Positions 47,701-64,000 of a stretch of DNA of 64,000 nt are shown piece by piece. Made by a program: the position numbers and the translations under genes. The notes beneath the pieces were generated by a model. That model was not told where the DNA came from and did no database searches. It saw only the letters and a list, made by a program, of their open reading frames with translations. This DNA is from a virus. Positions within the stretch are counted from its first letter, which is position 1. Each line of letters opens with the position of its first letter. The stretch is from IMG/VR virus record IMGVR_UViG_3300033148_006964, positions 116,927-180,926 of that record; one strand, written 5' to 3'.

Positions 47701-50700
47701 ACAGGGCAGTCTTTACCACCTCCAAAAAAGGCTTTTGTCTGGGATAAGATGTTATCGATGATGGCTGGTGCTGGTATAGATGTAGAACAAAAAGGTAAAA
47801 CATTTACATTAAAACCTATGACTGACGATGAAATCGTAAAAAAGTCAGCTGGGGAATTAAAGAGGCCGCATGAGACTTATCGTAAAAAAGATCTTATGCC
47901 TATGAGAGAAGGATTATTTGATCCGATTAAAGCTGGCGGTATGTATGGTGAGCACTATACTCACTTTAAACTTCCAGAGAAGATACTTAATCCTATTACT
48001 GCTTCGGCTACAGGTGTTCTTATTGATAAGACATCTACAGAACTTGATAATATTATTAATGGTAGATCATTTATTAATAAGACAACAGGTAAGACTGTAG
48101 AGCCTGGATCTCTTAATGCTATTTCTGGTGGACCTGCTATTGAGAACTTATTAAGTAGGGTTAGTGTTGATGAGGATTTGAAGCAAGCAAAGATGATAGC
48201 TGAGAATTCTAATAACTCAACTGTAATAGAAAAGATGCGTCGAAAGATAAAATATTTAAGGTCATTTAAAGAAAAAGGTATGAAGCCTACTGATTATATG
48301 ATAGAGAATGTTTTAGTTACTCCATCTAAATATAGGCCTATGTTTACTATGGGGACGGAAAAGACTGTTATCATGTCAGATATTAATGAGCTTTATCAAC
48401 AAACAGCTCATAGTGCGCAGGCTTTTAGGGCGGCTAAAAAAGATCTTGATGAGAATGTTAAGAATGAAGATATTAAAAATCTTACACTTGCTGAGATAAG
48501 AGGACAGATATATCAGGATGCAAAAGCAGTTGCAGGATTACAAGAACCTACTTCTTATCTTCATCGAGTAAAAAATAAAAAAGGTTATATAACTCAAATA
48601 GATGGCGGTCAAAAGAAACAAACTAAAGAAGGTTTTTTTCAGGATAAAGTCATGGAGCGTAGGCAGGATCTTGTTGGTAGATCTACTATTATACTTAATC
48701 CTGATCTTGGTGGAGATAATATAGGTATTCCTAAAACTATGGCTACTGAAATATTTAGACCTTTTATAATGAGTAAACTTGTAAGTTGGGGTTATCCTCC
48801 ATTAGAAGCACAGAAGCAAATAAAAGATAAGACTAAAGTGTTTGAAAGAGCTCGTCAGGTAGTTACTGATGATAGATTAGTTATTGCAAATAGAGCGCCT
48901 ACACTTCATAGATGGAACATGACTGCATTTAAGCCTAAGCTTACAGATGGTAAGTCTGTAGAGGTCCCGGCGGTTGTAGTTACTAAGAACTTTTCAGGAG
49001 ATTATGATGGAGACGCTTTCACCATTCATACTCCAGTAAGTCAAGCTGCACTTAAAGAAGCAGAGAAGATGAAACCTTCTGCCAGTATGCTTAAGACCGG
49101 TTATGATACAGTTCTTAATGCTCCTTCTATGGATGCTATTGTAGGTTCATGGCTTGTTTCTAAAGGTATGGGTGGCAATACTATTTCTAAGAAATTTAAG
49201 AATGTTGATGAAGCTAAATATGCATTTGATAACCATAATATTAAGTATAGTGATATGGTTACTATAAATAGTCGCAAAGCTCCTTTTGGTATGCATGCTA
49301 TAAATTCAGTAGTTCCTGAAGATTCTAAGCGTTGGGATGTTGAGCTTGATAAAGATAATGTTGATGATTGGATTCATGATGTAACTAAGAAACATAATGG
49401 TAAACTTGCACTTAATCTTGCTGATAAAGTTAAAGAAATAGGTAATAATTATTCAACAACATTTGGATTTACTCTTGGTGTATCTGATACAGTTGTGGAT
49501 AAAGATATTCGTGATAAAGCCATAAGTCAGGCTAAGAAAAAATCAAAAAGTGGATCTCCTGATTCTATTATTAAAGCTTATTATAATGAACGTGAAAGTG
49601 CACAAAAGGCTCTTGAAAAGAAACATGGTATTAAAACAATGCTTGGTATCGGTATAAAATCAGGTGGAAGTAAAGGCATTGGAAATACAGCTGCCATTAC
49701 ACTTATGCCAGGTATAGTTACAGATGCAAGTGATAGACCTATTCCAATACCAATAACTAAGTCTTATTCAGAAGGTCTTGATACTTTCGGTTACTGGACG
49801 GCTGCTCAAGGTGCTCGTGGTGGAAATATTAAGAAATCAGTTTCTTCTTTTAAACCTGGATGGTTAACTAAAGATCTTATGAATTCTATTTATGATACGA
49901 AGATCTATACAGACGATCCTACGGATACAGAAGGTCTTGAACAGGATATTTCTAATCGGAAAGCTATAACTAATCGTTATCTAGCTCAAGATGTTAAAAA
50001 TACTAAAGGTAAGATAATAGCTAAAAGAAATGATTTAATTGATAGTGATGTAGTTAATAAATTAAATCAACGGGGTATAAAGAAAGTATTTGTACAATCG
50101 CCGATCACTGACCCAACGCCAGGTGATGGGTTTTCAGGATACTCATATGGATTGGATTATGATGGTAAACGTCCGCAACGTGGAGATAATATAGGTGTTA
50201 TATCTGCACATACAATCACAGAACCTTCTCTTAATTTAGCTATGAAGGCTTTTCATACTGGTGGTGCTATGGAAGCTGGGGAAAAGGGTAAAGGGACTTT
50301 ATTTGATAGGTTATGGGATACAGTTCATTTTACTAAGAACGTTCCAGATAAAGCTACAATGTCCAGTATGAATGGTGTTGTATCAAATGTTAATAAATCT
50401 TCTGTTGGTGGGTGGGATGTTGTATTATCAGATGGTAAAAATGAAGAAGTACGATATATTGATCCACGTAATAAACTTATAGTAAATCAGGGCCAATCTA
50501 TTAAAGCTGGTGACATGTTATCAACAGGAACGCCAAGTGTTCATGATGTTTTAAAGTATAAAGGTATGAGACAAGCTCAGAAGTTTCTTGTTGGCGAAAT
50601 AGATAAGATCAATGATGGTAAACTTGATTCAAGGGATATAGAAACAATAGTACGTGGTATATCTAATACGACCAGGGTAACAGATCCTGGTTCAAGTACT

Positions 50701-51102
50701 TATGTTAAAGGTGATGTTGCTCCTCTTACTACTATAGATTATTACAATAAGAATAATCTTAAAGAAGAGGATGTTTCAGATACTGAAGGGGATCATTTAG
50801 CTCAGGGATACGATAAGTATAATTCGGGGATAAAGATAACTAAGAATATGATGAATGATTTTGCCAAGCAGGGTTTAAAGAGGATAAAGGTTCGCAAAGA
50901 TAAGATTAAACATGATCCTTTCCTCACCCCTGCAGGCATAGCGGCTAAAGCGGCATCCAGTGAAGATTGGATAGCACGTTTAGCTCATAATAGAGTAAGG
51001 AAGGTATTACAAGAAGGGACGACTCAGGGTTGGAAGAGTACATTAGATCCAATTAAGGGACATCCTATTTCAAACTATGTGGCAGGAGGCTACTCGTGGT
51101 AG
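44758..51102 (+). CDS. rpoBC-like: Single-chain fused RNA polymerase beta-beta' subunit
   Basis: 2114 residues without interruption. Beta half: HTPEGGSIGV (~413), GANLRVAYLPYKGYNFEDSA (~641), LHGNKHIISKI (~800), GKNIGRMEM (~942). Beta' half from ~1050: RPMFTMG, MERRQDLVGRS, NRAPTLHRWN, the catalytic loop NFSGDYDGDAF (Asp1415, 1417, 1419), bridge-helix region AAQGARGG (~1680) and trigger-loop AMKAFHTGG (~1829). The order and motifs are those of cellular RNAP, not the split phiKZ type or the crAss/YonO type. The beta' zinc-ribbon Cys are missing. Natural cellular fusions are near 2890 residues, so this is a reduced core. No alpha, omega or sigma gene in the window. Confidence 0.93.
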   Translation: MPIKSDQKILRQLEKMETSARNNVLMNTTVADTVSKILNSVEDDDIKLNVNKVWIEKKHDNRNIQDQQDVRNKGQVWSNELRADLSLVDKESNKVVDHITNIKVATIPKLTDRNTYLIKGNEYQFTKQSRLKPGVYTKEQTNGEISSFFNVDKTIDFDRGFNNNFKINFEPERKRFIMQYGSKRVPLINALKAVGVTKKELVEKWGQDVYDANAKAFDKHENRDQQKLYNAIFGFLPGSDLTDDQVRTEIKDRLFATKLDPDTTKITLGKAYKNVGKAPILDASKKIIDIHRGDVEGDDRESLIFKSFYDVEDHIREKLVKNSNKIMFNMKYKLKKNKAINKSLSSQSFDPFIVGTLTNSQLSNPPTQTNPMSIIGETSKMTVMGEGGIGTTNAITNDVREISNSEAGFIDPLHTPEGGSIGVAVHHTAGTIKVGNDIYSKFINKKGEKMLLRPVDVYDRNISFPDQFIETDKGLKPKSAKVKVIRRGKLAEIAANKVDAVINSSVNMFDTSANSIPFLDSIQGNRGLTASKMQEQALSLTNRDKPMFNIVDKSGTSIGETLGTLIAIPKSSINGEVVDITDNEIVVADKKGKKHISQLYNNFSLNSESFLHNRPIVKIGDSVKKDQILADNNYTRDGQMSLGANLRVAYLPYKGYNFEDSAIMSESGAKKLTSQHIYDHKAKRSANGVFSKSKYKAYYPEELNAKQAAKLDKEGVAKIGQVLERDDTVVAYMEQKAPTADDLAVGRLDKQLRRDMANDAIKWDNDVPGVVTGVKKHGNSVIVSVKAEEPLKVADKISGLHGNKHIISKIIPDEEMPFNPVTGKYIDLTMSPIGVSNRINTSQLLENAAGKIAEKTGEQFKIHNFSGKDNTAYILNELKKVGLSDKDILVDPETRKPFINPVANGISHILKLEHKVDHKYSARYRDGYDSNEQAATGGKTGGKNIGRMEMAALLARGANENLREMFNIKGQENTEYWKAMETGQSLPPPKKAFVWDKMLSMMAGAGIDVEQKGKTFTLKPMTDDEIVKKSAGELKRPHETYRKKDLMPMREGLFDPIKAGGMYGEHYTHFKLPEKILNPITASATGVLIDKTSTELDNIINGRSFINKTTGKTVEPGSLNAISGGPAIENLLSRVSVDEDLKQAKMIAENSNNSTVIEKMRRKIKYLRSFKEKGMKPTDYMIENVLVTPSKYRPMFTMGTEKTVIMSDINELYQQTAHSAQAFRAAKKDLDENVKNEDIKNLTLAEIRGQIYQDAKAVAGLQEPTSYLHRVKNKKGYITQIDGGQKKQTKEGFFQDKVMERRQDLVGRSTIILNPDLGGDNIGIPKTMATEIFRPFIMSKLVSWGYPPLEAQKQIKDKTKVFERARQVVTDDRLVIANRAPTLHRWNMTAFKPKLTDGKSVEVPAVVVTKNFSGDYDGDAFTIHTPVSQAALKEAEKMKPSASMLKTGYDTVLNAPSMDAIVGSWLVSKGMGGNTISKKFKNVDEAKYAFDNHNIKYSDMVTINSRKAPFGMHAINSVVPEDSKRWDVELDKDNVDDWIHDVTKKHNGKLALNLADKVKEIGNNYSTTFGFTLGVSDTVVDKDIRDKAISQAKKKSKSGSPDSIIKAYYNERESAQKALEKKHGIKTMLGIGIKSGGSKGIGNTAAITLMPGIVTDASDRPIPIPITKSYSEGLDTFGYWTAAQGARGGNIKKSVSSFKPGWLTKDLMNSIYDTKIYTDDPTDTEGLEQDISNRKAITNRYLAQDVKNTKGKIIAKRNDLIDSDVVNKLNQRGIKKVFVQSPITDPTPGDGFSGYSYGLDYDGKRPQRGDNIGVISAHTITEPSLNLAMKAFHTGGAMEAGEKGKGTLFDRLWDTVHFTKNVPDKATMSSMNGVVSNVNKSSVGGWDVVLSDGKNEEVRYIDPRNKLIVNQGQSIKAGDMLSTGTPSVHDVLKYKGMRQAQKFLVGEIDKINDGKLDSRDIETIVRGISNTTRVTDPGSSTYVKGDVAPLTTIDYYNKNNLKEEDVSDTEGDHLAQGYDKYNSGIKITKNMMNDFAKQGLKRIKVRKDKIKHDPFLTPAGIAAKAASSEDWIARLAHNRVRKVLQEGTTQGWKSTLDPIKGHPISNYVAGGYSW

Positions 51103-51335
51103 ATAAACAAACTATATTAGAACAGATATATAAAGATTCATTTAATGATGAATTAGAGAAGATGTCTGGTATAGGTGAAATGATCGGTGCAGTTAAAGCA
51201 GCAAAAACAACTATACAGGGTAATAGACAAAATAAAAGAGTAATAAGGCAACAACGAAGACACGATCGTAATATTGGTAAAGGTAATAGCTCTGCTCGTT
51301 GGAAAGGGTTTGCATTACCTGGTACTGGAAATTAA
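51096..51335 (+). CDS. Tagged small protein 1
   Basis: 79 residues. N-terminal tag VDKQTILEQIYKDSFNDELE followed by KMSGIGEM, then a basic region (TTIQGNRQNKRVIRQQRR). Overlaps the polymerase stop by 7 bp. First member of the tag family. Confidence 0.65.
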   Translation: MVDKQTILEQIYKDSFNDELEKMSGIGEMIGAVKAAKTTIQGNRQNKRVIRQQRRHDRNIGKGNSSARWKGFALPGTGN

Positions 51336-51347
51336 TAAAGGAATATA

Positions 51348-51884
51348 ATGATTAAATTAAATGCAGAATTATTAGAAAAGATTGCCCTTAATATTGATAT
51401 AGATATTGGGGATATAGTTCTTGGTGGTAGGTTTAAAAATAAACGTATGGAAGTTAAAAAGTTTGGTACGGATGATCTTGGTCAACCCACTATAAACGGA
51501 CGTAAACTACTTACTGTAAGAATAGAAAAGAAACTTCCTATTAATAAACAAAGTTCAAAAACTAGAGAGGAAAAAGATATGAATAAAGAATCAATGTTAA
51601 ATCAGATTTATGAGAATTCATTTAACGATGAAGTTCAGAAGATGGCCGGAATTAGAACAGAGTTTTTGGGTAATGCCGGTATTGGTGCTCCATTTGGTGC
51701 GCTTGCTGCCGCAATGACGCCTACAAAAACAGACGAGCAAATGAAAAAGCAAGAGAAAAAAACATGGTCTAATATGCTTTTGCCTGGTGTTGGGACCTAT
51801 AGAACGTTTAAGCGTATGGGCCATTCAAGAAAAAAGATCAAAGAATTAATTGAAAAAGATGATGCTAAAGCTAAAGCTAAATAG
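51348..51884 (+). CDS. Two-module protein with internal tag
   Basis: 178 residues. Module 1 (about 1-65) is a small conserved phage domain with GDIVLGGRFKNKRMEVKK and GTDDLGQPTINGRKLL. Module 2 begins at an internal ATG (51579, preceded by AGAGGAAAAAGAT) as MNKESMLNQIYENSFNDEV, then QKMAGI, the shared tag, followed by a Gly/Ala segment and basic tail. Could be a fusion or two overlapping products. Confidence 0.65.
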   Translation: MIKLNAELLEKIALNIDIDIGDIVLGGRFKNKRMEVKKFGTDDLGQPTINGRKLLTVRIEKKLPINKQSSKTREEKDMNKESMLNQIYENSFNDEVQKMAGIRTEFLGNAGIGAPFGALAAAMTPTKTDEQMKKQEKKTWSNMLLPGVGTYRTFKRMGHSRKKIKELIEKDDAKAKAK

Positions 51885-51907
51885 TTTTTAATTTAAAGGG
51901 AGCAAAT

Positions 51908-53275
51908 ATGGAAGGCCCTTCATTAACTTATGTACCTGTACCATGTATTTGTAGTGGTGTTATTAGTAGTTATATAGGTGAAGATGATGTATATGAAGTT
52001 GCTGTTTATGATTCTCCTGTAGGCGAACTAAATGGCCCTATTCATTGTGGTTTAATATATCCTCCAGGCTTTGACGGTAACTATAAACAAGGGACATATG
52101 TTAAACTTCTTATTCCATTTATGTTTGGTGGTGTTGAAGAGAAATTTATTGATATAGCTCCATCTGCTTCATATTACATTATTGGTACTTTTAATGAAGA
52201 AGTAATGGTTAAAGCTGATGTTGAAAACCCATTGGCTGAAAACGATGAGGATAAAATAAGGTTTATACATCCAAAAAGCAATGCTGGTATTACAGCTTCA
52301 GAAGATGGTAAAACAAAAGTTATATCAGGAGGTGTTTCTTATATACTATTAGCTGCTCTTGGCAATGGGACAATGGAAGAAGCTTCTTATTCAGCTGCAC
52401 AGAACTTTCATCGAGTTATAGCTAATAACGGCCCACTGTATCTTGCTAAAGAACATTTTGGTATGTATCGTGGTAAAGATTATGCTGATAAAGCTTTAAA
52501 TGTAATGCCTGATGATATGCTTATTAACTTTCGAAGATTTGTTACACAATCAAGATCTCCTGAGAACTGGGTGGCTACATGTGAAGGTGCATGGGCTCCT
52601 TTTGTCGGAGCCAATGTAAAGAACGATGAAGTAACGAAAGGAAAAGAGGTCTTATTCTCGAAAGCTGTAAATTATGGAGATTCTAGAATTACGATAGAAA
52701 TGGGTAATCCTGGGGATGAATTTATTAACTTAAGAGTTGATACTATTCCTATAAGTGAAAAAGCTATACCTATGGCTCCAGGTGCAACTCCGGCAGTAGT
52801 TGGTAATAAGTTTAAAATAAATATAAGTGATAGTGGAAAACTTGATATAAGAGCAGGTGGTAAAGGAATTCCAGCAAGTAATATTAATGGGTTGCATATA
52901 AGTATAGATGAATTAAATAATTTAACAATTCATGCTTCTGGTAAGATCACATTTTCTCATGGAGACACTGATGAAGCTAATAACTCTTTAGTTATGGACC
53001 CAAAAACAGGTATTGATATAACAGCATTAAATGGTTTTAGAGTAAATGGACTTGAAGTACTTACCAGAGCATTTCTTGATTGGTTTAATACGTATCAAGC
53101 ATCATTAGTCCAAGTTACAGGAATTGGGGCTCCAGCCCCTATAAGTATTGCTGCGTTACCGGACTTTATTGCAGGAGTTAAGAAGTTTGCAAAGGCGGGT
53201 GGGTTTTCCACAATAGGCAAAAGTGCACCGGCGAGTGGTGTTATTAAAGATGCTGATGCATTTAGAACAGTTTAA
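51908..53275 (+). CDS. Baseplate/spike-like virion protein
   Basis: 455 residues. N-terminal barrel-like region (VPCICSGVISSY, GEDDVYEVAVYDSPVGEL, YKQGTYVKLLIPFMFGG), a middle region, then strand repeats (GNKFKINISDSGKLDIRA, HISIDELNNLTIHASGKITF) like the beta-helix of gp5-type puncturing devices, and a C-terminal FLDWFNTYQASLVQVTGIG. Assignment by architecture only. Confidence 0.55.
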   Translation: MEGPSLTYVPVPCICSGVISSYIGEDDVYEVAVYDSPVGELNGPIHCGLIYPPGFDGNYKQGTYVKLLIPFMFGGVEEKFIDIAPSASYYIIGTFNEEVMVKADVENPLAENDEDKIRFIHPKSNAGITASEDGKTKVISGGVSYILLAALGNGTMEEASYSAAQNFHRVIANNGPLYLAKEHFGMYRGKDYADKALNVMPDDMLINFRRFVTQSRSPENWVATCEGAWAPFVGANVKNDEVTKGKEVLFSKAVNYGDSRITIEMGNPGDEFINLRVDTIPISEKAIPMAPGATPAVVGNKFKINISDSGKLDIRAGGKGIPASNINGLHISIDELNNLTIHASGKITFSHGDTDEANNSLVMDPKTGIDITALNGFRVNGLEVLTRAFLDWFNTYQASLVQVTGIGAPAPISIAALPDFIAGVKKFAKAGGFSTIGKSAPASGVIKDADAFRTV

Positions 53276-53292
53276 CAAGCTAGGGGATTAAA

Positions 53293-53769
53293 ATGGATAG
53301 TAAATCTGTAAAAGAAACAAAAAAGCATATTGGTAATGTTTACGATTTTATAAATAAGTTTCGGGCTGAATTACTTAATCGTGCAATTAAGCATGATAAA
53401 AGTAAATTAGAAGATCCTGAAGTTTCTATATTTGAAGAATTCACACCTAAACTTAAAAATAGTACATATAATAGCAATGAATATAAAGGTTTTTTAAAAG
53501 ATATGAAACCGGCACTTGATCACCATTATTCTAAAAATTCCCATCATCCGGAACATTATAAAAACGGTATAGACGGTATGAATTTGGTAGATATTATTGA
53601 GCTGTATTGTGATTGGGCTGCCGCCTCCATGAGGCATAGTGATGGAGACCTTAAGAAGAGTATTCAGATAAACAAGAAAAGATTTGATATGTCGGATCAA
53701 TTAACTAAGATATTTGAGAATTCAATGACATTGTTAGGAAAGAAGCTGGTAGTTAAAAAAGGCAAATAA
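53293..53769 (+). CDS. DUF5662-like phage protein
   Basis: 158 residues. HDKSKLEDPE, HHYSKNSHHPEHY, MNLVDIIELYCDWAAASMRH and RFDMSDQL match a common all-helical family (DUF5662 as I recall) with conserved His and Asp, suggestive of an HD-like metal site. Role unknown. Confidence 0.7.
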   Translation: MDSKSVKETKKHIGNVYDFINKFRAELLNRAIKHDKSKLEDPEVSIFEEFTPKLKNSTYNSNEYKGFLKDMKPALDHHYSKNSHHPEHYKNGIDGMNLVDIIELYCDWAAASMRHSDGDLKKSIQINKKRFDMSDQLTKIFENSMTLLGKKLVVKKGK

Positions 53770-53776
53770 TTTGCCT

Positions 53777-54001
53777 TTAATTTTTTCTGTCATAAAGAAC
53801 TTTTACACCTTTTTTTTCTAAGAACTTTATGATAGTGTTATTGATTATTATGTTTTTGCAAAGCCTTGTTTCGGCTTTTAAATGAATTTCCTTAATCTTA
53901 CCGATTTCTGCCCGATGACAAAGTTCCAGTAGTTTATAATTACCTGTTGTGGCTAAGTTTAACCATAATTGTTCTTCTGTATTATATTTACTTTTTTCCA
54001 T
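53777..54001 (-). CDS. Small hypothetical protein
   Basis: 74 residues, ankyrin-like hint (LWLNLATTGNYKLLELCHRA). It lies alone on the minus strand; its probable promoter (copy i, 55348-55379) is now separated from it by the inserted TnpB element. Confidence 0.55.
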   Translation of the reverse strand: MEKSKYNTEEQLWLNLATTGNYKLLELCHRAEIGKIKEIHLKAETRLCKNIIINNTIIKFLEKKGVKVLYDRKN

Positions 54002-54027
54002 ATTTACTCCCTATAAATAATGAACGA

Positions 54028-55342
54028 GAAAATCCATGGTTTTAGTTGTGAGATGAGGATAAACATATATTTATAAAAAATGCTTGTTTTTTATAAGAAA
54101 CTAATGTATATTATTATTATGTTAAAAACATATAAATATAGAATCTATCCAACTGAGGATCAAAAAGTTTTAATATCAAAAACTTTTGGTTGTTGTAGAA
54201 AGATATACAATTGGGCCCTTGATTTTAAGAATAAAAGATATTCACAATATGGAGATAATGTTAACAGGTATGAACTTGATAAAATGTTAACATTTTTAAA
54301 ATCTACAGATGAATTAAAATATCTTAACGAGGTTCATAGTCAATCTCTTCAGCAGGAACTTATTCATCTGGAAAAATCTTTTACAGGATTCTTTAAGAAG
54401 AAGAGTAAATATCCGAATTTTAAAAGCAAGAATAATAGACAATCATATTCTTGTCCGCAAGGGGTAAGAATTAATTCTAAAAATCAAAAAGTCTTTATAC
54501 CAAAGATAAAATATGTCGATTTGAAAATAGACAGACAATTTGATGGTAAGATAAAGACATGCACCGTAAATATGTCACCATCTCAAAAGTATTTTATATC
54601 AATGCTTGTTGATGACGGCAAAGAGCTTCCTTCAAAGAAAGATATAAATAAAGAAACTTCTATAGGCTTAGACGTTGGTATAAAAACATTTCTGACTGAT
54701 TCTAATGGAAACGAAGTTAAGAATCCAAGATTTTATCATAATTCTGAACCAAGAATAAAATGCTTGGGCAAAAGATTGTCAAGAAAAACCAAGGGTTCTA
54801 AGAATAGAAATAAGGCAAGAGTTAGACTTGCTATAAGATATGAGAAAACCTTAAATCAAAGGAAAGACTTTCTTCAAAAGCTTTCAACAAATATTATCAA
54901 AAACCACGATACTATATTTGTTGAAGATCTTGATATTAATAAAATGTTAAAGAATCAAAATTTATCTAAATTAATCAGTGATGTAAGTTGGTTTGAATTT
55001 TTTAGAATGCTTGAATATAAATCTGATTGGTATGGTAAAAATTTTATTAAAATTGGTAAATTTGATCCAAGTTCAAAAATGTGTAGATGCGGAATCATTA
55101 ACAAAGATTTAACTCTTAAGGATAGAACTTGGACTTGTAAAGAGTGCGGTTCTATTAATCAAAGAGATATCTTAGCCGCAGAAAACGTTAAGAAGTTTGG
55201 GTTATTAAGATTTAAGTATGATACATCGCCGGGCGGGCGAGGTGAGCCTGTGGAGCCGCTGTCATTAGACAGGGTTATGAAACAGGAAGCAATACAAGTG
55301 ATTGTATGAAATACATGACTTTAGTCGTGGGAGTATGTCAAC
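54028..55342 (+). mobile_element. TnpB element (IS200/IS605-type, no tnpA)
   Basis: One tnpB followed by the right-end hairpin CATGAC-TTTA-GTCGTG and GTATGTCAAC. A left-end motif CATGGTTTTAGTTGTG is at about 54035. It has split promoter copy i from the 53777-54001 gene. Boundaries approximate. Confidence 0.75.
54119..55309 (+). CDS. tnpB: TnpB RNA-guided nuclease
   Basis: 396 residues from MLKTYKYRIYPTEDQ. RuvC Asp in GLDVGIKTF, Glu in VEDLDINKM, zinc site MCRCGIIN...CKECG (C-x-C instead of C-x-x-C) and NQRDILAAENV in place of the usual DRDxNAAxN, where the third Asp is kept. Slightly atypical zinc finger; probably active. Confidence 0.88.
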   Translation: MLKTYKYRIYPTEDQKVLISKTFGCCRKIYNWALDFKNKRYSQYGDNVNRYELDKMLTFLKSTDELKYLNEVHSQSLQQELIHLEKSFTGFFKKKSKYPNFKSKNNRQSYSCPQGVRINSKNQKVFIPKIKYVDLKIDRQFDGKIKTCTVNMSPSQKYFISMLVDDGKELPSKKDINKETSIGLDVGIKTFLTDSNGNEVKNPRFYHNSEPRIKCLGKRLSRKTKGSKNRNKARVRLAIRYEKTLNQRKDFLQKLSTNIIKNHDTIFVEDLDINKMLKNQNLSKLISDVSWFEFFRMLEYKSDWYGKNFIKIGKFDPSSKMCRCGIINKDLTLKDRTWTCKECGSINQRDILAAENVKKFGLLRFKYDTSPGGRGEPVEPLSLDRVMKQEAIQVIV

Positions 55343-55347
55343 TCATT

Positions 55348-55379
55348 ATTGTTATACCATATTTTTTAAATTAATAACT
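55348..55379 (-). promoter_or_regulatory. Promoter-like element (copy i)
   Basis: AGTTAT, 14 bp, TGGTATAACAAT on the minus strand, beginning just 6 bp outside the TnpB element's right end and pointing into it. Confidence 0.6.
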
Positions 55380-55437
55380 AGCTTGCAATTTGTTATTATA
55401 TTATCATATATTATGTATATATCAAAAGGATGGTTGG

Positions 55438-55719
55438 ATGCCTATACCCAGACAAACAATGTCTGTCATTGGCAAATCTATAGTTGGTAGTATTAAAAAC
55501 TTTATGATTGCTAATGCTAACTCTATGGCTATACAGAAAGAATCAACTCCGGAAGAAGGGGCTGAAGCTATGGCTCATGCAATATCATACGGGATAGCAA
55601 AGGCTTTATCAACCCCCCAAATGCAAGCTGCGTTTTCTGCAGGGATAGCTCCACCTTCGGGAGGGCCTGTCGGTAGTTTGATCTTTCTTCAAATAAAAGC
55701 CAATACTTTAGAGGTCTAA
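55438..55719 (+). CDS. Virion-region protein, paralogue of 57370-57675
   Basis: 93 residues from MPIPRQTMSVIGKSI after AAAAGGATGGTTGG. Shares EEGAEAMAHAISYGIAKAL, the Met/Ser turn, PPSGGPVGSLI and the end LEV with 57370-57675. Each copy directly precedes a tagged gene. Probably a small structural protein. Confidence 0.65.
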   Translation: MPIPRQTMSVIGKSIVGSIKNFMIANANSMAIQKESTPEEGAEAMAHAISYGIAKALSTPQMQAAFSAGIAPPSGGPVGSLIFLQIKANTLEV

Positions 55720-55720
55720 T

Positions 55721-56140
55721 ATGGATAAGCGAGCATTATTAGAACAGGTCTATGAAAACTCATTTAGTGATGAGTTAATAAAGCTTTCTGATTTTGGTGA
55801 TATTACTAGAAAAGTTTTTGGTTATCATGATCTTAAAGAAGTGTCTAAAACGACTGGTATTCCAAAAAAAGATGTAGTTACGTATTACCATGGGTTGAGG
55901 GCTCCTAATAGAATGCTTTATAGTAAAGAGAATGTTGCTAAAGACATTAAAAATATATGGACACAAAGAGAAAAATATAATAAAGCACGTCAGAAGGTTA
56001 AGTTTTTAGATACAAAACCTGGCGGTAAAGAAGAAGCTGCTATATTAAAAACTCATGGTAAATCGTGGGATAAAATGCTAGGTAATCTTTTAAAAACGCG
56101 AAAAGGTTTAATGACAAAGTATCGTGATCTTAAAAATTAA
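55721..56140 (+). CDS. Tagged protein 2
   Basis: 139 residues. Tag MDKRALLEQVYENSFSDELI (then KLSDF), a helix-turn-helix-like stretch LKEVSKTTGIPKKDVVTYY, and a basic helical C-terminus. One base after the previous stop. Confidence 0.65.
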   Translation: MDKRALLEQVYENSFSDELIKLSDFGDITRKVFGYHDLKEVSKTTGIPKKDVVTYYHGLRAPNRMLYSKENVAKDIKNIWTQREKYNKARQKVKFLDTKPGGKEEAAILKTHGKSWDKMLGNLLKTRKGLMTKYRDLKN

Positions 56141-56157
56141 ATGGTGTGAGGTTTAAT

Positions 56158-56325
56158 ATGAATATTCATTTTGGGAAATTTGAAATATGTTTTAGAAACC
56201 ATACAGGTCTTCTTAGGAAAGCAATGAATCCAAGATATGAAATAATATTTGATAATACTGATAAATATATTGGGTTGTTTTTTGCGTTTTGGTATTTCGA
56301 TTTACAATTAAATAAATTTAAATAA
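56158..56325 (+). CDS. 55-residue protein, paralogue of the next gene
   Basis: MNIHFGKFEICFRNHTGLL, PRYEIIFDNTDKYIGL, ending LNKFK. Shares H-GKF, FRNH, PRYEI-FDN-DKYIGL and NKFK with 56342-56512. Read directly. Confidence 0.6.
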   Translation: MNIHFGKFEICFRNHTGLLRKAMNPRYEIIFDNTDKYIGLFFAFWYFDLQLNKFK

Positions 56326-56341
56326 AAGATATGGGTTTAAT

Positions 56342-56512
56342 ATGCTTGATCTACATATTGGTAAATTTCAAGTATGGTTTAGAAATCATATAAAAGCTTA
56401 TAGGAAATTAATAAAACCAAGATATGAAATAACGTTTGATAACAATGATAAGTATATTGGATTGAATTTTTCATTTGGATATCTTGATTTGCGTTTTAAT
56501 AAATTTAAATAA
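56342..56512 (+). CDS. 56-residue protein, paralogue of the previous gene
   Basis: MLDLHIGKFQVWFRNHIKAY, PRYEITFDNNDKYIGL, ending FNKFK. Tandem duplicate of 56158-56325. Function unknown. Confidence 0.6.
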   Translation: MLDLHIGKFQVWFRNHIKAYRKLIKPRYEITFDNNDKYIGLNFSFGYLDLRFNKFK

Positions 56513-56524
56513 TAGGGGTATGGC

Positions 56525-56944
56525 ATGGATAAGCAAGCACTTTTAGAACAGGTCTATGAAGAGTCGTTTAAAGATGAGATGCAAAAAATTGCTGGTAAAA
56601 CATTAAAAGATGTTGGAACAGGTACATTAGTAGGCGCTGGAGTTGGTGGGACATTAGGTGCTGCTAAACTTTATAGAATGTTAAAACCTGTTAGTGGACT
56701 TTTACCGATGTTTTCAAAGTCGCAATTGATACAACAGGGTGCTAAGTATATCGGGAGTAAAGCTGGCAAAGGGGCCTTGCTAGGTGCTGGTGCCGCGTAT
56801 TTGCTTAGTAAAATAAAAAAAGTAGATAAAGAACGCAGTATTGGCGGTGGCGGACTTGCTGGTGCTGGTGGTGGAACTCGTCGCTTTGATAGTTCTGGTG
56901 GTGGTACTGGTAATTATGGAACACCTAATCAACCTGAAAATTAA
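56525..56944 (+). CDS. Tagged glycine-zipper protein
   Basis: 139 residues. Tag MDKQALLEQVYEESFKDEMQ (then KIAGK), a glycine-zipper segment TGTLVGAGVGGTLGAAKLY, a second at KGALLGAGAAYLL, and a Gly-rich low-complexity tail. Glycine zippers often insert into or span membranes. Confidence 0.7.
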   Translation: MDKQALLEQVYEESFKDEMQKIAGKTLKDVGTGTLVGAGVGGTLGAAKLYRMLKPVSGLLPMFSKSQLIQQGAKYIGSKAGKGALLGAGAAYLLSKIKKVDKERSIGGGGLAGAGGGTRRFDSSGGGTGNYGTPNQPEN

Positions 56945-56956
56945 AGAGGTTTTAGC

Positions 56957-57370
56957 ATGGATAAGCAAGCGTTGTTAGAACAGGTCTATGAAGAGTCGTT
57001 TAATGATGAGTTGGAGAAGATAAGTGATGAAGTAAAGATACCTGAAGGCGGTCTTAAACCTGGCTTATTAATAAATGATTTAACACGACTTATGACAGAT
57101 GAAGACGCTAAACGTGTTAAAAAAAATAAAAATGTTTTTCTTAGATCAGGCCCTGGATTAATACCAGGAGCGCTTGTTGGTGCTGTAACAGGTAATACTT
57201 TACATTCTCTTTTATCAAAATCTTATAAGTTAAAAAGACCATATGGAGCTATTGCTGGTGGAGCATTATTACCATTAATCGCAATGATTGGATCTAAAGC
57301 TGGGTTATATGATAAACAAGCTTTATCAGCTGCAAAAAAAATGGTGCAAGACACTAAAAAGGAAAAATAA
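56957..57370 (+). CDS. Tagged membrane-type protein
   Basis: 137 residues. Tag MDKQALLEQVYEESFNDELE (then KIS), a polar middle, then PGALVGAVTGNTLHSLL and GAIAGGALLPLIAMIGSK, two glycine-rich hydrophobic stretches. Its ATG region repeats the DNA at 56525 almost exactly, so the tag was copied recently. Ends overlapping the next start. Confidence 0.7.
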   Translation: MDKQALLEQVYEESFNDELEKISDEVKIPEGGLKPGLLINDLTRLMTDEDAKRVKKNKNVFLRSGPGLIPGALVGAVTGNTLHSLLSKSYKLKRPYGAIAGGALLPLIAMIGSKAGLYDKQALSAAKKMVQDTKKEK

Positions 57371-57675
57371 TGCCACAAATAAGATTTACAACCTCCGCTT
57401 TAGGTAATTATATAGAACCTAAGATAGAATCTTTTCTTAAGGGTAATATTACTTATATGAAGTCTTTAAAAGAATCAAGTCTTGAAGATGGTGCAGAAAC
57501 AATTGCTAATGCTATTTCTTATGGGATAGCAATAGCTCTTTCAAGTTCTATGATGCAGAGTTCTTTTTCTTTAGGAATATGCCCACCTCCTATTCCTCCA
57601 TCAGCAGTTACTCCTGGTGGGCCTGTTGGATCATTAATATATGCGGCTTTAAAGCCTCAAGTGTTGGAAATATAA
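57370..57675 (+). CDS. Virion-region protein, paralogue of 55438-55719
   Basis: 101 residues with EDGAETIANAISYGIAIAL and PGGPVGSLIYAALKP. Longer Pro-rich turn than its paralogue. Function unknown. Confidence 0.65.
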   Translation: MPQIRFTTSALGNYIEPKIESFLKGNITYMKSLKESSLEDGAETIANAISYGIAIALSSSMMQSSFSLGICPPPIPPSAVTPGGPVGSLIYAALKPQVLEI

Positions 57676-57676
57676 T

Positions 57677-58333
57677 ATGGATAAGCAAGCGATATTAGAA
57701 CAAGTATATAATAATTCGTTTGATAATGAATTGGTTAAAATATCGTCTAAACATCTAGTAACAAAGATATTTACAGTAGGTGGATTAACTGCAGCAGGAG
57801 CTTTAAGTGGGATAGGTTATGGGAATGTAACTTCATTAATAGCAAATATTAAAGCGGCTAAAGAAATTGAAAAAAAGATTAAAGAAGATATAGTTCCTGC
57901 CAAAACTATAATAAAAAAATATGCCCCTGATGTTGTGCATATTGGTGATGAAGATACTGCTAAGAAAAATTTATCTACATTCAAAAGAATAATAGTTAAA
58001 CCTGGGCTTGAAGGTAGAGGTGCATTTTATGTTTCAGGGAAAAAACCGATTATAGTTACTGCAAAAAATATAAATAAAAGTATTTTAGGTCATGAGATTG
58101 GCCATCATTTTGATAGACCTGTTAGTTTTAAAGGAAAAGTAAAGAATATATTTAGAAGTACGGTAAAAAGAGAGCAAGAAGCTTGGGATAAGTCACCGAT
58201 AAAAGTAGATCCTAAAGTTAAAGACGTAGCTCTTGGTACTTATAAAACATTAGCTAAACATCAAAATATAGGAGCTCTTATAGGAGCTCTCACAGGCGCT
58301 GGTCTTGGGACGTATTTAATAAAAAGTTTATAA
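57677..58333 (+). CDS. Tagged zinc-metalloprotease-like protein
   Basis: 218 residues. Tag MDKQAILEQVYNNSFDNELV (then KISSK); hydrophobic Gly segment TVGGLTAAGALSGIGYG (~33-50); zincin motif ILGHEIGHHFD (HExxH, ~138-146); C-terminal ALIGALTGAGLGTYLI. A membrane-inserting peptidase carrying the virion-region tag: a good candidate for a protein injected with the DNA that cuts host proteins or envelope. Confidence 0.75.
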   Translation: MDKQAILEQVYNNSFDNELVKISSKHLVTKIFTVGGLTAAGALSGIGYGNVTSLIANIKAAKEIEKKIKEDIVPAKTIIKKYAPDVVHIGDEDTAKKNLSTFKRIIVKPGLEGRGAFYVSGKKPIIVTAKNINKSILGHEIGHHFDRPVSFKGKVKNIFRSTVKREQEAWDKSPIKVDPKVKDVALGTYKTLAKHQNIGALIGALTGAGLGTYLIKSL

Positions 58334-58346
58334 AAATATAAAAAGG

Positions 58347-60569
58347 ATGGAATCTATGCTTAGTACAAAAGACGCAGTTATTCACCCACTGACATTTGAG
58401 AAGGTCGCTGATTATGATTTATCAACCGATTCTTCTGAATGGAACGATGAGATAATTAAATATTTCTATGAGCAGGTTCCTTATTTGCCAAAGGAAATGA
58501 ATTCAGACATTGTTGTTAATAATGTTGATGAAAATAAGGGTTATGCAAAAGGAAGTATTATCGTTTGGTTTAATGATAAAAAGATTAACTTTCCAGTGAT
58601 TGTTAATGATTTTAAATTAAGTCCTTTTGATACTTTTATTTATCAAGATGGTAACAAGTCAGAATATCATCCTGCAAATCTTAATAATATTAAATCAATA
58701 TTAGCTTCATCTCAGATTGGTACTGTAGATTCTCGTAGAAGTGGTTCTGATGGTTATAATAAAGATGTAAAACTTCCTGGTGATATCCAACCTAAAGATA
58801 CTGTACCGATTGATGATGTTGAAGTCGGTATGTATGGTTATCCCGGTGTTAAGATGTCTAGTTGGGCAGCGCATGCTAAAAAAGAAGACCTTGAGAAACT
58901 GGCAGTTCAAATGAAAGCAGAACCTGATGTAGCTAGTTCTTTTGTAGACAACAGTGGAGATCTTATTACTAATGTTATTAGTATGAAAGATAATGAGACT
59001 AAAACTATTAAAGATAGCCAAAAGGATGGCATTTTGGATTTGGATAATGTTATAGATGCCAAACGTGCTGTAACAGCTATTGATTTTGAAATGTTTGATG
59101 TTTCTAAATTAAAACCAGTAGAAGCTCCTTCAGTATGTGAACTTAGAATGTATGAATATCCTTCTATGGAAGATTTTATGGAAAGCGGAAAGAGCATGGC
59201 ATCCAGGTTTATGGCCACTAAAATAGGCAAACCCATTACAGGAATTATTATTGATTATAAAGATGAGTATGATTTTCGTAATGATAGAAATGAAGTAGAG
59301 TCTGCGTATTCATCTGATACTGATGCAGATAAATTAAAAAAAGTACGTAATAAACGTTCTCAGATATTTATATCGGCGGATGGTAAATATTATAGTAAAT
59401 ATAGAGATTATAATAAAACCGGAATAGGGTTTTACGGTTCAGAAATCTTAAATGTGCCTGGAGCTATTGAGAAAGTTGTTAAAATAATTTTTGAAAAAAC
59501 TTCAGATCAATTTTCGTTACTTAATCGTGATAATCGAGGGGATGGGGCTGATAAGAGTTTTGTGCCTAATAAAAACGCAAATCAGGGAATGGAAATGTAT
59601 TCAGATAATATGCCTACCGCTTACTCTCCTAGTGGAAATAATTTAATAGCTATATATGGAGCAGGTGATTCATATGAATCTATAGAATTTGAAGGTAAAT
59701 ATAAGCGTTATATAGTTAATGGTGCTAAAATATATGTTTCAAATAATACTGCTATTATACCAGCTAATGTAGCTGCACCTCAACTTGTTAATTCTGTAGA
59801 AGACCCTGTTTATAAGATGATCTTAGGAACTGGATCAAAATATATATATCTTATGCCTGAGAGTATAATTATAATAAATACTAAGTTTATGAAATGTCTT
59901 GATAAAAAAGATTTTATGAAACCAGATCTTTCAGTTCAGAAGACTTATGAAGATGCTGCTATTAAAAAAGTCGCTGTATTAGTAGATCCTTCACGTCATG
60001 GTTATTGTATAAGCGGAGAGCCATTTGAGTCGCTTCAGAAGATAGCTAGACTTACTGATGATTCAATTCTTTCTACTAAAGAAACACTTGCTGCTCTTAA
60101 TATAATGGGAATGGAAAAAGAAGCTGCTAATACTGTCCTTAAAGTTGCGCTTAATCGTCAACTTGAGAAAACTGCTTTAGATAAATCTGTTAATATATTT
60201 GGGTTAAGAAGTGATTATATTAATACTAAGGCATTTGAAGGTCAGGAAAAACAAGCTCGTATTAAAGATATATATCGTCAGATAGCTGATGATCTTCGTA
60301 AAGATCTTATAAAAGAAGCAAGTGTTTTAACCGATCCTGATGCCGTTGATGTAGTTCTTTCTCTTAATTATATAAACGAAGAAAACCTTAATATGTATAT
60401 TGAGAATATTCCAACTATGAATAAGATCATTGGCGTTCTTGCGCAGCTTCTTATAGCTTCTAGAATGGGGTTATCAGATATGAATGAAGGTGCGATTAAA
60501 AAGGCTATGGAAGGTCTTGATGATGTAGTTTCTGGTCTTGAAGATGTTAAACTAGCAATAGGTAAATAA
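58347..60569 (+). CDS. Large virion-region protein
   Basis: 740 residues; the better SD places the start at 58356 (MLSTKDAVIHPLTFEKVADYD). Mixed alpha/beta with strand-rich centre (GYAKGSIIVWFNDKKINFPV), Lys/Glu-rich C-terminal helices (AANTVLKVALNRQLEKTAL). Follows the tagged genes; probably a structural or ejected protein. No domain recognised. Confidence 0.6.
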   Translation: MESMLSTKDAVIHPLTFEKVADYDLSTDSSEWNDEIIKYFYEQVPYLPKEMNSDIVVNNVDENKGYAKGSIIVWFNDKKINFPVIVNDFKLSPFDTFIYQDGNKSEYHPANLNNIKSILASSQIGTVDSRRSGSDGYNKDVKLPGDIQPKDTVPIDDVEVGMYGYPGVKMSSWAAHAKKEDLEKLAVQMKAEPDVASSFVDNSGDLITNVISMKDNETKTIKDSQKDGILDLDNVIDAKRAVTAIDFEMFDVSKLKPVEAPSVCELRMYEYPSMEDFMESGKSMASRFMATKIGKPITGIIIDYKDEYDFRNDRNEVESAYSSDTDADKLKKVRNKRSQIFISADGKYYSKYRDYNKTGIGFYGSEILNVPGAIEKVVKIIFEKTSDQFSLLNRDNRGDGADKSFVPNKNANQGMEMYSDNMPTAYSPSGNNLIAIYGAGDSYESIEFEGKYKRYIVNGAKIYVSNNTAIIPANVAAPQLVNSVEDPVYKMILGTGSKYIYLMPESIIIINTKFMKCLDKKDFMKPDLSVQKTYEDAAIKKVAVLVDPSRHGYCISGEPFESLQKIARLTDDSILSTKETLAALNIMGMEKEAANTVLKVALNRQLEKTALDKSVNIFGLRSDYINTKAFEGQEKQARIKDIYRQIADDLRKDLIKEASVLTDPDAVDVVLSLNYINEENLNMYIENIPTMNKIIGVLAQLLIASRMGLSDMNEGAIKKAMEGLDDVVSGLEDVKLAIGK

Positions 60570-60574
60570 TAGAA

Positions 60575-60820
60575 ATGATTAAAACATTTGAACATATTGT
60601 AGCAAAAGGTATTAAGAAGGCTTTGAAATATACTAAAGCTTTTGGTAAGACGGAAACTGGTAAAGACATTAAAGAAAAATATATGCCAGAAACTGAGGAG
60701 CAAAGGTTAAAAAGAATATTAGAAATAAATAAGGTAAGCGGCATGAAGGAAATATATAGAAGTTCTTTTTATGACGAGCTTGAAAAAATAAGCTTACAAA
60801 TCACAAGCGTTCATAGTTAA
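60575..60820 (+). CDS. Small protein with C-terminal tag-like motif
   Basis: 81 residues, basic helix then KEIYRSSFYDELEKISLQI, the tag motif placed at the C-terminus. An internal ATG just before KEIYR raises the alternative of a tag-only peptide. Last plus-strand gene before the convergent region. Confidence 0.55.
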   Translation: MIKTFEHIVAKGIKKALKYTKAFGKTETGKDIKEKYMPETEEQRLKRILEINKVSGMKEIYRSSFYDELEKISLQITSVHS

Positions 60821-61502: not shown

Positions 61503-61991
61503 TTAGTGAAGTCTCTTCCTTTCAATATAAGATTGTGCCAGTGCGTCTGCTTTCTCATTCCATCTGTTTGACGCATGGCCTTTGACCCACTGAAAACAAA
61601 AAGATTTAAACTCTCGGGTCAGACTGTCAATCTGTTTCCATAATCTAATATTTAGCACTTTACTACCATTTGTTTTTCTCCATCCCATTGATTTCCATAA
61701 TGGGACATATTCAATAAAATTATCACATACATATTTCGAATCAGTTTTAATTATACAATTATGATTCTTTGAATTATCACAACTTTCTTCAAGGTATTTA
61801 ATTAACGCTTTTAAACTTTCTATAACGGCCATCATTTCCATTTGATTATTAGTTGTATTATCCTCTATTCCTTTTCCGCAAATAATACTGCTTTCTGAAG
61901 CATCAAGAATAATATAACCATAACCACCTTTGCAACCAGCATCTCGCCTATTACCAGAACAACTGCCATCTGTATAAATTATATAAGTCAT
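61503..61991 (-). CDS. rnhA: Ribonuclease HI
   Basis: 162 residues, full length. Degrades the RNA strand of RNA-DNA hybrids. Catalytic set visible: Asp in IYTDGSC, Glu in NQMEMMAVIESL, Asp in IKTDSKYV, and the C-terminal His/Asp in WVKGHASNRWNEKADALA. The basic protrusion region (LWKSMGWRKTNGSKV) is present as in E. coli RnhA. Starts 8 bp after the RT stop; the pair would process reverse-transcription products. Confidence 0.93.
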   Translation of the reverse strand: MTYIIYTDGSCSGNRRDAGCKGGYGYIILDASESSIICGKGIEDNTTNNQMEMMAVIESLKALIKYLEESCDNSKNHNCIIKTDSKYVCDNFIEYVPLWKSMGWRKTNGSKVLNIRLWKQIDSLTREFKSFCFQWVKGHASNRWNEKADALAQSYIERKRLH

Positions 61992-61999
61992 AGGTAATT

Positions 62000-63073
62000 T
62001 TACGTAGTAACTGACACTGGTCCAGAAAACTTACTCCGCTCAAAGTCTAGTAGTTGATTCATATATTTTTTACCTTTTTTATGATCAACAGACATTAAAA
62101 ACGAAGCCCATCCCTTTAACTTCCTAAGATCAAGCCTTGTAGTATCATTAGCATTTTTTACTGTAGCATGATGAACTTTAGCTCGAAATAATTTTACTTC
62201 AGATCTTTGTATTGATTTTTTTACATTAACGACTATTCCGCAAATTTTCATTCTTCCGGTTTTTGATTTCCATTTTGTTTTTTTATATTTTGGTTTGAAA
62301 TTATAAGCTCTTAATAGAGCATATGCTTTCTTTTGTATAGTATTTCGTAATTCGTCTTTATTATGAACTTTACTACTAAAAGATAGATCATCAGCATATC
62401 TGGTATATGTAACATTATGTTCTTTACAATACTCAGATATAGATTGATCAAAACCACGTAAAACAATATTAGCAATGACTGGAGAAGTAGGAAACCCTTG
62501 TGCTGTATAATTATCGTATGTGCAAAGACCTATTATTCTATTGAATAAAGATTGATATCCCATTTGTTCACAATATTCTGGAATATGCACAGCTTTAATT
62601 TCTTCACATTTGAATTCAAAGTCTGTAAATTTATTATGATATAATGAAGGATGGCATCTACCATTCAACATACGTTCATAGTTTTTACAGAGTCTGCAAA
62701 TATGTTTGTTTCCAAATATACAGTTTTTAAGGTGATCTACAGATATTGAATCAAAAAAATTCTCAATATCAATTTTACCTATACAATTAGTACCTACATG
62801 GGGTTCAGCATTAGTAACAATACTTTTTTTTGGAACAAATCCATGGGCTGCACTATTCGCTTTATATCTCTTGAAAAATTTCCAATATAAGCTTTTTTGT
62901 ATAAATTTAAATTCAGGACTTGGTGCTATAATATGCCTTTTAGAACCATCATGCTTAGGTATAACAATACGTTCAATATGATGTTCTTTGTTTGCTATTA
63001 TCTCATCAACTTCTTCTACAGGTTTGCCGAAAATTGTATGCAGATCAAAATTACTACGTTGTAGTGTCTTCAT
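62000..63073 (-). CDS. Retron-like reverse transcriptase
   Basis: About 357 residues from MKTLQRSNFDLHTIF (GAGGTG eight bases upstream). RT blocks: HGFVPKKSIVTNAEPHVG with IGKIDIENFFDSIS (first catalytic Asp), QGFPTSPVIANIV, YTRYADDLSFSS (YADD) and KICGIVVN where retrons carry a VTG-like motif. An insert of ~50 residues between blocks 3 and 4 holds CRLC and further Cys. No maturase, protease or endonuclease domain, and no DGR-type repeats seen nearby. Overlaps the DHH gene's end and is followed by RNase HI. Confidence 0.88.
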   Translation of the reverse strand: MKTLQRSNFDLHTIFGKPVEEVDEIIANKEHHIERIVIPKHDGSKRHIIAPSPEFKFIQKSLYWKFFKRYKANSAAHGFVPKKSIVTNAEPHVGTNCIGKIDIENFFDSISVDHLKNCIFGNKHICRLCKNYERMLNGRCHPSLYHNKFTDFEFKCEEIKAVHIPEYCEQMGYQSLFNRIIGLCTYDNYTAQGFPTSPVIANIVLRGFDQSISEYCKEHNVTYTRYADDLSFSSKVHNKDELRNTIQKKAYALLRAYNFKPKYKKTKWKSKTGRMKICGIVVNVKKSIQRSEVKLFRAKVHHATVKNANDTTRLDLRKLKGWASFLMSVDHKKGKKYMNQLLDFERSKFSGPVSVTT

Positions 63074-64000
63074 CTTTCGGCACCTCATTTGCATCTTCAG
63101 ATTCTAAGGTGTCGTTAGTTACACTTGATCTTGCTTCTTCTATATTTTCTGATTCACCAGTTTTAACCATCTCCTGGGCTTCTTTTTCTACAGCATCTTC
63201 TTCTTTATCAACTCCATATTTTTCCATTTCTTCTTCCACTGGTTGATCCTCCAATTTTGGGTTAAGTTTAAGACTTAGATCATCAAGCAGCCTTTCAGCA
63301 TCTTTTGAGTTAAGGATGCCCCCACCAACATTATAATGCCCTCCAGCACTAATTAAATAATTTAATCCATTTAACATTTGGCCAATATGAATAGAAGCTT
63401 GATCATTATGCCATTTGTTAAATCCAATTTGCAAATAGAGTCTGTCTCCTCTAATATTAGTTAATCTGATAGAATATTTGATCTCAGGTTTAATCTTGTA
63501 TTCTACGTATCGAGGAAATTGATTAGGTCTTCTTTGGCGTATAACAGAGAAGTTGTTATACACTTCCATAAATTTACATATTTTTTTTGTTTGAATTTTT
63601 AATATTTCAACATCATATTTACTAATGCCAAGTCGTGCTATAGCTTCTTCACAATCAAACTTTGTTTGAGAAAGAATTTCTGCAATACGGCAATAGGTCA
63701 TATTTGAAGGAAAATTACATTCTAAATGAGCTCTAATAAGCATCAAAGGAGATGTATCAGAAAAAATTTGGTTTACATCTTCATATTCAGCTTGGTCAAT
63801 CATATGAACAGTATCCAAAAAACCATCGGGCAGATCTAATGGGTTATACTTATTAGCAAGCAATTCCGCTGCTGATCCAATAGATGAATCATAACATATA
63901 TTTTCATTAATAACAGGTGAGCCTCCAAAACTTTTATTCCAATGATGGTCACACCACAAATTAGCCTTTTGATGATATTCAAAATCAAGAACAATAAGAA
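63054..64000 (-). CDS. DHH/DHHA1 phosphoesterase, N-terminus outside window
   Basis: About 315 residues visible. CDHHW supplies the DHH metal motif, and SAGGHYNVGGG near residue ~220 is the DHHA1 signature. Members degrade short oligonucleotides (NrnA), pAp or cyclic dinucleotides. The C-terminus is an unusual acidic tail of ~75 residues. The 3' end overlaps the RT start by 20 bp, so the three enzymes are co-expressed. Confidence 0.85.
   Translation of the reverse strand, partial: LIVLDFEYHQKANLWCDHHWNKSFGGSPVINENICYDSSIGSAAELLANKYNPLDLPDGFLDTVHMIDQAEYEDVNQIFSDTSPLMLIRAHLECNFPSNMTYCRIAEILSQTKFDCEEAIARLGISKYDVEILKIQTKKICKFMEVYNNFSVIRQRRPNQFPRYVEYKIKPEIKYSIRLTNIRGDRLYLQIGFNKWHNDQASIHIGQMLNGLNYLISAGGHYNVGGGILNSKDAERLLDDLSLKLNPKLEDQPVEEEMEKYGVDKEEDAVEKEAQEMVKTGESENIEEARSSVTNDTLESEDANEVPKDEDTTT

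Follow-up and report, generated by a model that had tools for sequence, protein, structure and literature searches.

A short peptide tag on otherwise unrelated late proteins of a phage clade: a likely capsid-targeting propeptide

A short peptide segment with the core (I/V)Y..AF.DEL.K(I/L)(A/S), here called the tag, is carried by otherwise unrelated proteins encoded in a 64,000-nucleotide stretch of phage DNA (“the window,” bases 116,927–180,926 of a 180,926-base phage record) and in related phages, and it is likely to be a capsid-targeting propeptide that is removed by the phage's head protease. The existence of the tag, its occurrence on unrelated bodies, the selection acting on the peptide, the location of its genes, the motif it has in common with the protease, capsid and scaffold-like proteins, and the second motif upstream are all shown by the sequence comparisons presented below. 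What the tag docks on, whether its proteins are packaged, cut (and at which bond) and ejected, and what the cargo does are inferred, without experimental demonstration. In the proposed mechanism, the (I/V)Y..AF.DE segment would dock the tagged proteins on a common partner inside the forming head, by analogy with T4 most likely the scaffold or core; the phage's own head-maturation protease would then cut at the L-x-K-x-A/S with which the tag ends, and the cargo freed inside the head would be ejected with the DNA. Cargo lying upstream of an internal or C-terminal tag would be released through a second K-x-A/S on the upstream side.

A genome-wide profile search identified nine tags in the record, seven of them inside the window; the profile built from the first tags recovered all seven (E = 4e-15 to 1e-4), with a gap to the noise. 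On the plus strand of the window, MVDKQTILEQIYKDSFNDELEKMS (51096–51167) opens a 79-aa basic protein whose ORF (51096–51335) has a GTG start and overlaps the RNA polymerase gene at its end, and MNKESMLNQIYENSFNDEVQKMA (51579–51647) lies within a 178-aa protein (ORF 51348–51884), flanked by an LGGRFKN domain before it and a basic C-terminal part after it, with K-E-S immediately upstream of the core. The LGGRFKN domain also precedes the tag in related records G002 and G011, so the architecture is conserved and this tag is internal; GAGG stands 8 bases before the ATG at 51579, and a short form starting there is also possible. Further N-terminal tags on the same strand are MDKRALLEQVYENSFSDELIKLS (55721–55789) on a 139-aa protein, MDKQALLEQVYEESFKDEMQKIA (56525–56593) on a 139-aa glycine-rich protein with a weak Gly-zipper match, MDKQALLEQVYEESFNDELEKIS (56957–57025) on a 137-aa protein, and MDKQAILEQVYNNSFDNELVKIS (57677–57745) on a 218-aa metalloprotease-like HExxH protein with orthologues in G006 and G003. 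The seventh, MKEIYRSSFYDELEKIS (about 60743–60793, plus strand), is C-terminal in the product of an 81-aa ORF (60575–60820) and is preceded by N-K-V-S-G, which provides an upstream K-x-S. Outside the window are the tag of a glycine-rich protein encoded just before the head-protease gene (genome position 7837) and a weaker internal tag (profile E = 0.001) in a 223-aa protein on the minus strand (genome 558–1229), the orthologue of which in a relative has an internal tag too.

The first-pass annotation had placed the tag at the same seven window sites, and all seven proved correct; its internal assignment at 51579 held, given the conserved domain order, subject to the possible short form. The profile search of the whole genome and related phages that it had proposed was run, and gave the two extra tags in the record and many in relatives. 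Its reading of the bodies held in part: an “HTH-like” body has no Pfam support, the glycine zippers have a match that falls below Pfam's cut-off, and the HExxH motif of the supposed protease is real, being kept in three orthologues (HEIGHH, HELGHH, HELGHS).

Capsid relatives in IMG/VR numbered 35 loci, and tags were present in 11 of the 14 related records searched with the profile. Ten of the tagged related records were fetched, the search was iterated and the window's own record was added, giving about 72 tags on 71 proteins from 11 related contigs plus the window's own record, with 7 to 12 tagged proteins in each larger related record. When the tags were masked, the bodies of the 71 proteins fell into 54 unrelated groups, of which 45 had a single member. 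The E at position 3 and the K at position 6 of the core are invariant (72/72 tags), and the F, D/N, L and I/L are nearly so. The tag therefore satisfies the description of a short conserved segment on otherwise unrelated proteins, in 53 cases at the N-terminus and in 20 internally or at the C-terminus, the ambiguous 51579 tag being counted in both sets. The tag alignment proved too variable to serve as a query against the IMG/VR collection. A degenerate DNA pattern of the core AF.DEL.KIA took its place and matched at least 120 stretches; about 3 chance matches were estimated, assuming some 60 billion bases and even composition. A homologous capsid protein is encoded by 36 of the 43 larger contigs picked up in this way, mostly with only 28–36% identity to that of this phage, and in four distant genomes so found most copies of the core lie right at the N-terminus, on unrelated proteins, with none seen in shuffled proteins. 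No tag was found in named phages (tblastn, E up to 10), the profile search of Salmonella phage Arash and Vibrio phage D181 was empty (weak evidence), and no relatives of the capsid protein were found among bacterial genome contigs.

Tags on unrelated bodies in the same genome have a mean identity of 0.596, against 0.486 between genomes and 0.535 for those on homologous bodies of different genomes (permutation p < 2e-4). Codon identity at shared residues over all tag pairs of this genome is 0.622, against 0.611 expected from codon usage; it is near that expectation in most larger tag sets, with a moderate excess in G005 and some small sets. Since the peptide is alike within a genome while synonymous sites have drifted, the similarity of the tags is mainly kept by selection, and codon identity led us to reject recent DNA duplication as its origin. 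The exception is the pair at 56525 and 56957, whose DNA is nearly identical (11 of 13 codons the same at shared residues). This near-identity had been noticed earlier and taken to mean that the tag moves as a module: the observation holds but is exceptional among this genome's tag pairs, and modularity holds for the architecture, the similarity coming mostly from selection and not from recent DNA copying. The likeness within a genome is as expected if all tags must fit one partner, an inference made from sequence alone.

The late block of the window starts with a gene for a fused beta-beta' RNA polymerase of 2114 aa (44758–51102, plus strand), followed by those for a conserved 455-aa protein that is syntenic in relatives (51908–53275, plus) and a conserved 740-aa protein (58347–60569, plus); the latter contains five E-K-x-A motifs where 0.3 are expected and is a predicted substrate of the head protease. 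The first 15 kb of the record encode the terminase large subunit, a homologue of head-maturation proteases, a scaffold-like protein and the major capsid protein. Relatives, where covered, show the gene order RNA polymerase, 455-aa, 740-aa, terminase, protease, scaffold-like, 165-aa, capsid, so the two ends of the record most likely adjoin each other in the genome. The tag genes occupy gaps in this conserved order, downstream of the polymerase, flanking the 740-aa gene and ahead of the protease; in G003 and G004 a cluster of them has a sigma factor gene on one side and a baseplate gene on the other. The late strand carries 58 of the 61 tags in eight records (p = 2e-14 against one half), and tag genes mostly adjoin head and tail genes. 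Six of these records have their tags nearer to structural genes than genes in general are, the remaining two being short contigs that hold mostly structural genes.

Other features were recorded. The late block encodes a DUF5662 protein (53293–53769, plus; E = 8e-36), and an IS605 OrfB/TnpB-like transposase gene is inserted among the tagged genes (54080–55309, plus). A reverse transcriptase gene (61503–63094, minus; Pfam RVT_1, E = 1e-20) adjoins a separate RNase H gene, a pair also seen in L016 and G005 and oriented opposite to the late genes. In L009, structural-region proteins (12676–13518 and 18079 onward) contain long serine-rich low-complexity stretches. At 2641 aa in the gene call, its start and end being normal, the polymerase homologue of G003 possibly contains an insertion.

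The nearest named phages, Salmonella phage Arash and three Vibrio phages, are distant (about 29–30% identity for the polymerase, 26–30% for the capsid protein). Mass spectrometry of Arash virions detected the RNA polymerase, most of all, together with the capsid protein, the protease homologue and other enzymes (PMC10585845); the polymerase of the window is a distant homologue of that most detected protein. This homology, together with the direct adjacency of several tag genes to the RNA polymerase gene (in the window and in G002, G005, G006 and G007), would favor a different reading, that tagged proteins dock on the virion RNA polymerase and are brought into the head with it, in which case the K-x-A motif would be a separate matter. 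We consider this unlikely: the clusters between sigma-factor and baseplate genes in G003 and G004 are far from the polymerase, and neither the motif common to protease and capsid nor the motif upstream of internal tags would be explained. Less likely still, the tag could send proteins to another place in the infected cell (a membrane or a phage compartment), or could be a domain that occurs generally in phage proteins and has no connection with virions. Several glycine-rich bodies might enter membranes, and the functions of most bodies are unknown, but the tags lie among structural genes on the late strand, co-occur with the capsid gene, and have a motif in common with head proteins.

That motif, the L-x-K-x-A/S end of the tag, is strongly over-represented in head proteins of the clade, as seen in an unbiased count of all gapped three-residue patterns in the head-block proteins of six genomes, with tags masked. 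E-K-x-A ranked first (74 against 12.4 expected) and K-x-A-S second (60 against 10.6), with L-x-K-x-A close behind, whereas four control blocks showed no comparable rise of E-K-x-A or K-x-A-S; these two motifs also come out on top in the pooled distant relatives, Arash and D181. The over-represented form is [LIVMF]-x-K-x-A-[S/A/G], in which Glu before the K is preferred without being required, and up to nine copies are found in one protein. Counts across relatives are not independent; E-K-x-A ranked third in this genome's head block alone, and single-gene tests of [LIVMF]-x-K-x-[A/S] genome-wide were modest (best p ~1e-5).

The 633-aa head-maturation protease (genome 8443–10344) was assigned to its family by a weak match to PHROG 18299 “head maturation protease” (E = 1.5e-6) and by its homologue in the Arash virion proteome, gp222; it has no Pfam match. 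Every full-length head protease, 21 of 21 across all subclades, has [LMF]-x-K-x-A followed by S, A, T or G before the catalytic domain, the K being at residues 27–32. Of 32 further capsid proteins, 30 have K-x-A within their first 40 residues, against an average of 6.5 in shuffles; the column of the K-x-A differs among subclades, and capsid proteins of near relatives have K-[IVL]-[A/S/G] at residues 17–19, so K-x-S or K-x-G is possible there. The scaffold-like protein has multiple L-x-K-x-A/S sites. The motif that ends the tag is thus shared with the N-termini of protease and capsid and with the scaffold-like protein; full homology of the tag to capsid or scaffold N-termini was rejected, only this end being common. 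We infer, on sequence evidence, that L-x-K-x-A/S is the cut site of the head protease, while accepting that it could mark binding rather than cutting. A scissile bond after the tag's invariant Glu was considered, and misfits the head motif, where Glu is not required. Two uncharacterised families rich in [LIVMF]-x-K-x-[A/S], both in G000, one at 85930–86601 (L013, 9930–10598) and the other at 5045–5866 (L009), are likewise only predicted to be cut by the head protease.

Were the motif a cut site, it would be needed only on the downstream side of an N-terminal tag, but on both sides of an internal or C-terminal one. K-x-[A/S] stands directly upstream of 18 of the 20 internal or C-terminal tags, where random windows drawn from these proteins would give 3.4, but of only 9 of the 53 N-terminal tags, even when T is allowed (Fisher p = 1.2e-8; p = 8e-10 without this genome; each related protein enters the count on its own, and the ambiguous 51579 tag figures in both groups). 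Six of the nine are MDKQA-like starts of this genome, in which 6 of 7 N-terminal tags have an upstream K-x-A/S/T that would not be needed under the cut-site reading. A Met stands at the tag in both exceptions among the 20, whose start codons may have been placed wrongly and whose tags may then be N-terminal. One tag of G010 lies exactly between a DNA-ligase part and a histidine phosphatase.

These data also bear on the possibility that the tag is a docking segment, for packaging or for another phage structure, without any proteolysis, L-x-K-x-A/S being merely part of the binding surface. In its favor, C-terminal and internal tags show that position is flexible, and a cut on the downstream side only would leave a C-terminal tag on its cargo. 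Against it, the upstream K-x-A/S is almost confined to tags with cargo upstream, and the motif stands before the protease catalytic domain in every full-length copy; we regard this alternative as improbable. A propeptide removed by the head protease remains the preferred reading.

Most tagged bodies match nothing. The recognisable ones are the HExxH protein (window 57677), a LigD 3'-phosphoesterase, a ligase-phosphatase fusion and a weak KptA-like protein (RNA 2'-phosphotransferase), and we infer that such enzymes are plausible as injected cargo of the first minutes of infection. A 514-aa LigD 3'-phosphoesterase plus ligase of G003 (L095, 3175–4719) has a tag-like C-terminal stretch, LFNESLVKEFQKIA, that the tag profile did not report. 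AlphaFold models of the HExxH and 51348 proteins (pLDDT 40 and 52) were of too low confidence to use, and an amphipathic helix in the tag is not claimed, the hydrophobic moment not exceeding that of shuffles.

The initial proposal of a packaging signal like the capsid-targeting sequences of T4 is thus supported, without experimental demonstration, by the head-protein motif, the upstream motif, the co-occurrence with capsid genes, the late-strand location and the likeness of tags within a genome; its suggestion of cleavage after KIS/KIA is supported by motif sharing and the upstream motif, cleavage itself being only inferred. Against the reading stands the lack of proteomics for any tagged phage; no named tagged phage was found, so Arash and D181 can test the motif and not the tag. 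The weak identification of the protease, the shifting capsid column, the invariant Glu of the tag and the superfluous upstream motifs in six of seven tags here also count against it. A bolder reading joins two claims, that the head protease of a very broad clade cuts at K-x-A/S and not after Glu, and that the tag is a two-sided excisable targeting cassette which can be placed before, after or between cargo domains, such that the injected set could be read from any genome of the clade; taken together, we judge the balance to tip slightly towards it.

Injected phage proteins are hard to recognise because their bodies lack mutual similarity. If the reading is true, the tag would allow their prediction from the genome throughout a large clade that is mostly uncultured and has an RNA polymerase of the virion type. 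Enzymes that repair DNA ends, metalloprotease-like proteins and small basic proteins are among the candidate early effectors to which it would point. With the proposed K-x-A/S specificity, head maturation in this clade becomes open to direct test, also in the isolates Arash and D181, and the tag, if shown to act in this way, would be another means of loading chosen proteins into phage heads.

Among known systems, the crassvirus phi-crAss001 stores RNA polymerase and other proteins in its virion for ejection, with no common targeting tag described in the relevant sections (PMC10172136). In phage P1, the N-terminal 30 residues of DarB suffice to carry a reporter into the head (PMC9024508), a signal shown on one protein, whereas the tag described here is common to many. 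SPN3US and phiKZ are alike in that gp245/gp175 cleaves the propeptides of many head proteins at a short motif, and the C-terminal propeptide of the protease has been proposed as a targeting signal; they differ in that the motif is A-x-E or S/A-x-E and the propeptides are mostly long, and no common tag is described in the relevant sections (PMC10052503, PMC7411985, PMC9026906). The head proteases of T4, phiKZ and SPN3US all cut after Glu (PMC10052503, PMC7411985, PMC9026906). The closest parallel in organisation is T4, where the scaffold has multiple gp21 sites and the capsid protein and the protease have one each near the N-terminus (PMC9026906), the same layout as that of the motif in the scaffold-like protein, capsid and protease of this clade. 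As here, the signals of T4 IPI-III and Alt are short terminal sequences on unrelated cargo that end in a motif, the cargo is hypervariable, and Alt is cut at both ends; in T4 the terminal motif is the cleavage motif of the head protease and recurs in scaffold, capsid and protease, a role in cleavage that is inferred for the tag (PMC9026906, PMC7411985). Unlike the T4 signals of about 10 residues, the tags are 17–24 residues long, are N-terminal, internal and C-terminal, and mark 7 to 12 proteins per larger record. The tag does not meet the gp21-type requirement of L/I-x-E before the cut, the predicted motif being L-x-K-x-A/S, and for this reason we do not class it as a T4-type member; the likeness is one of organisation and not of shown homology.
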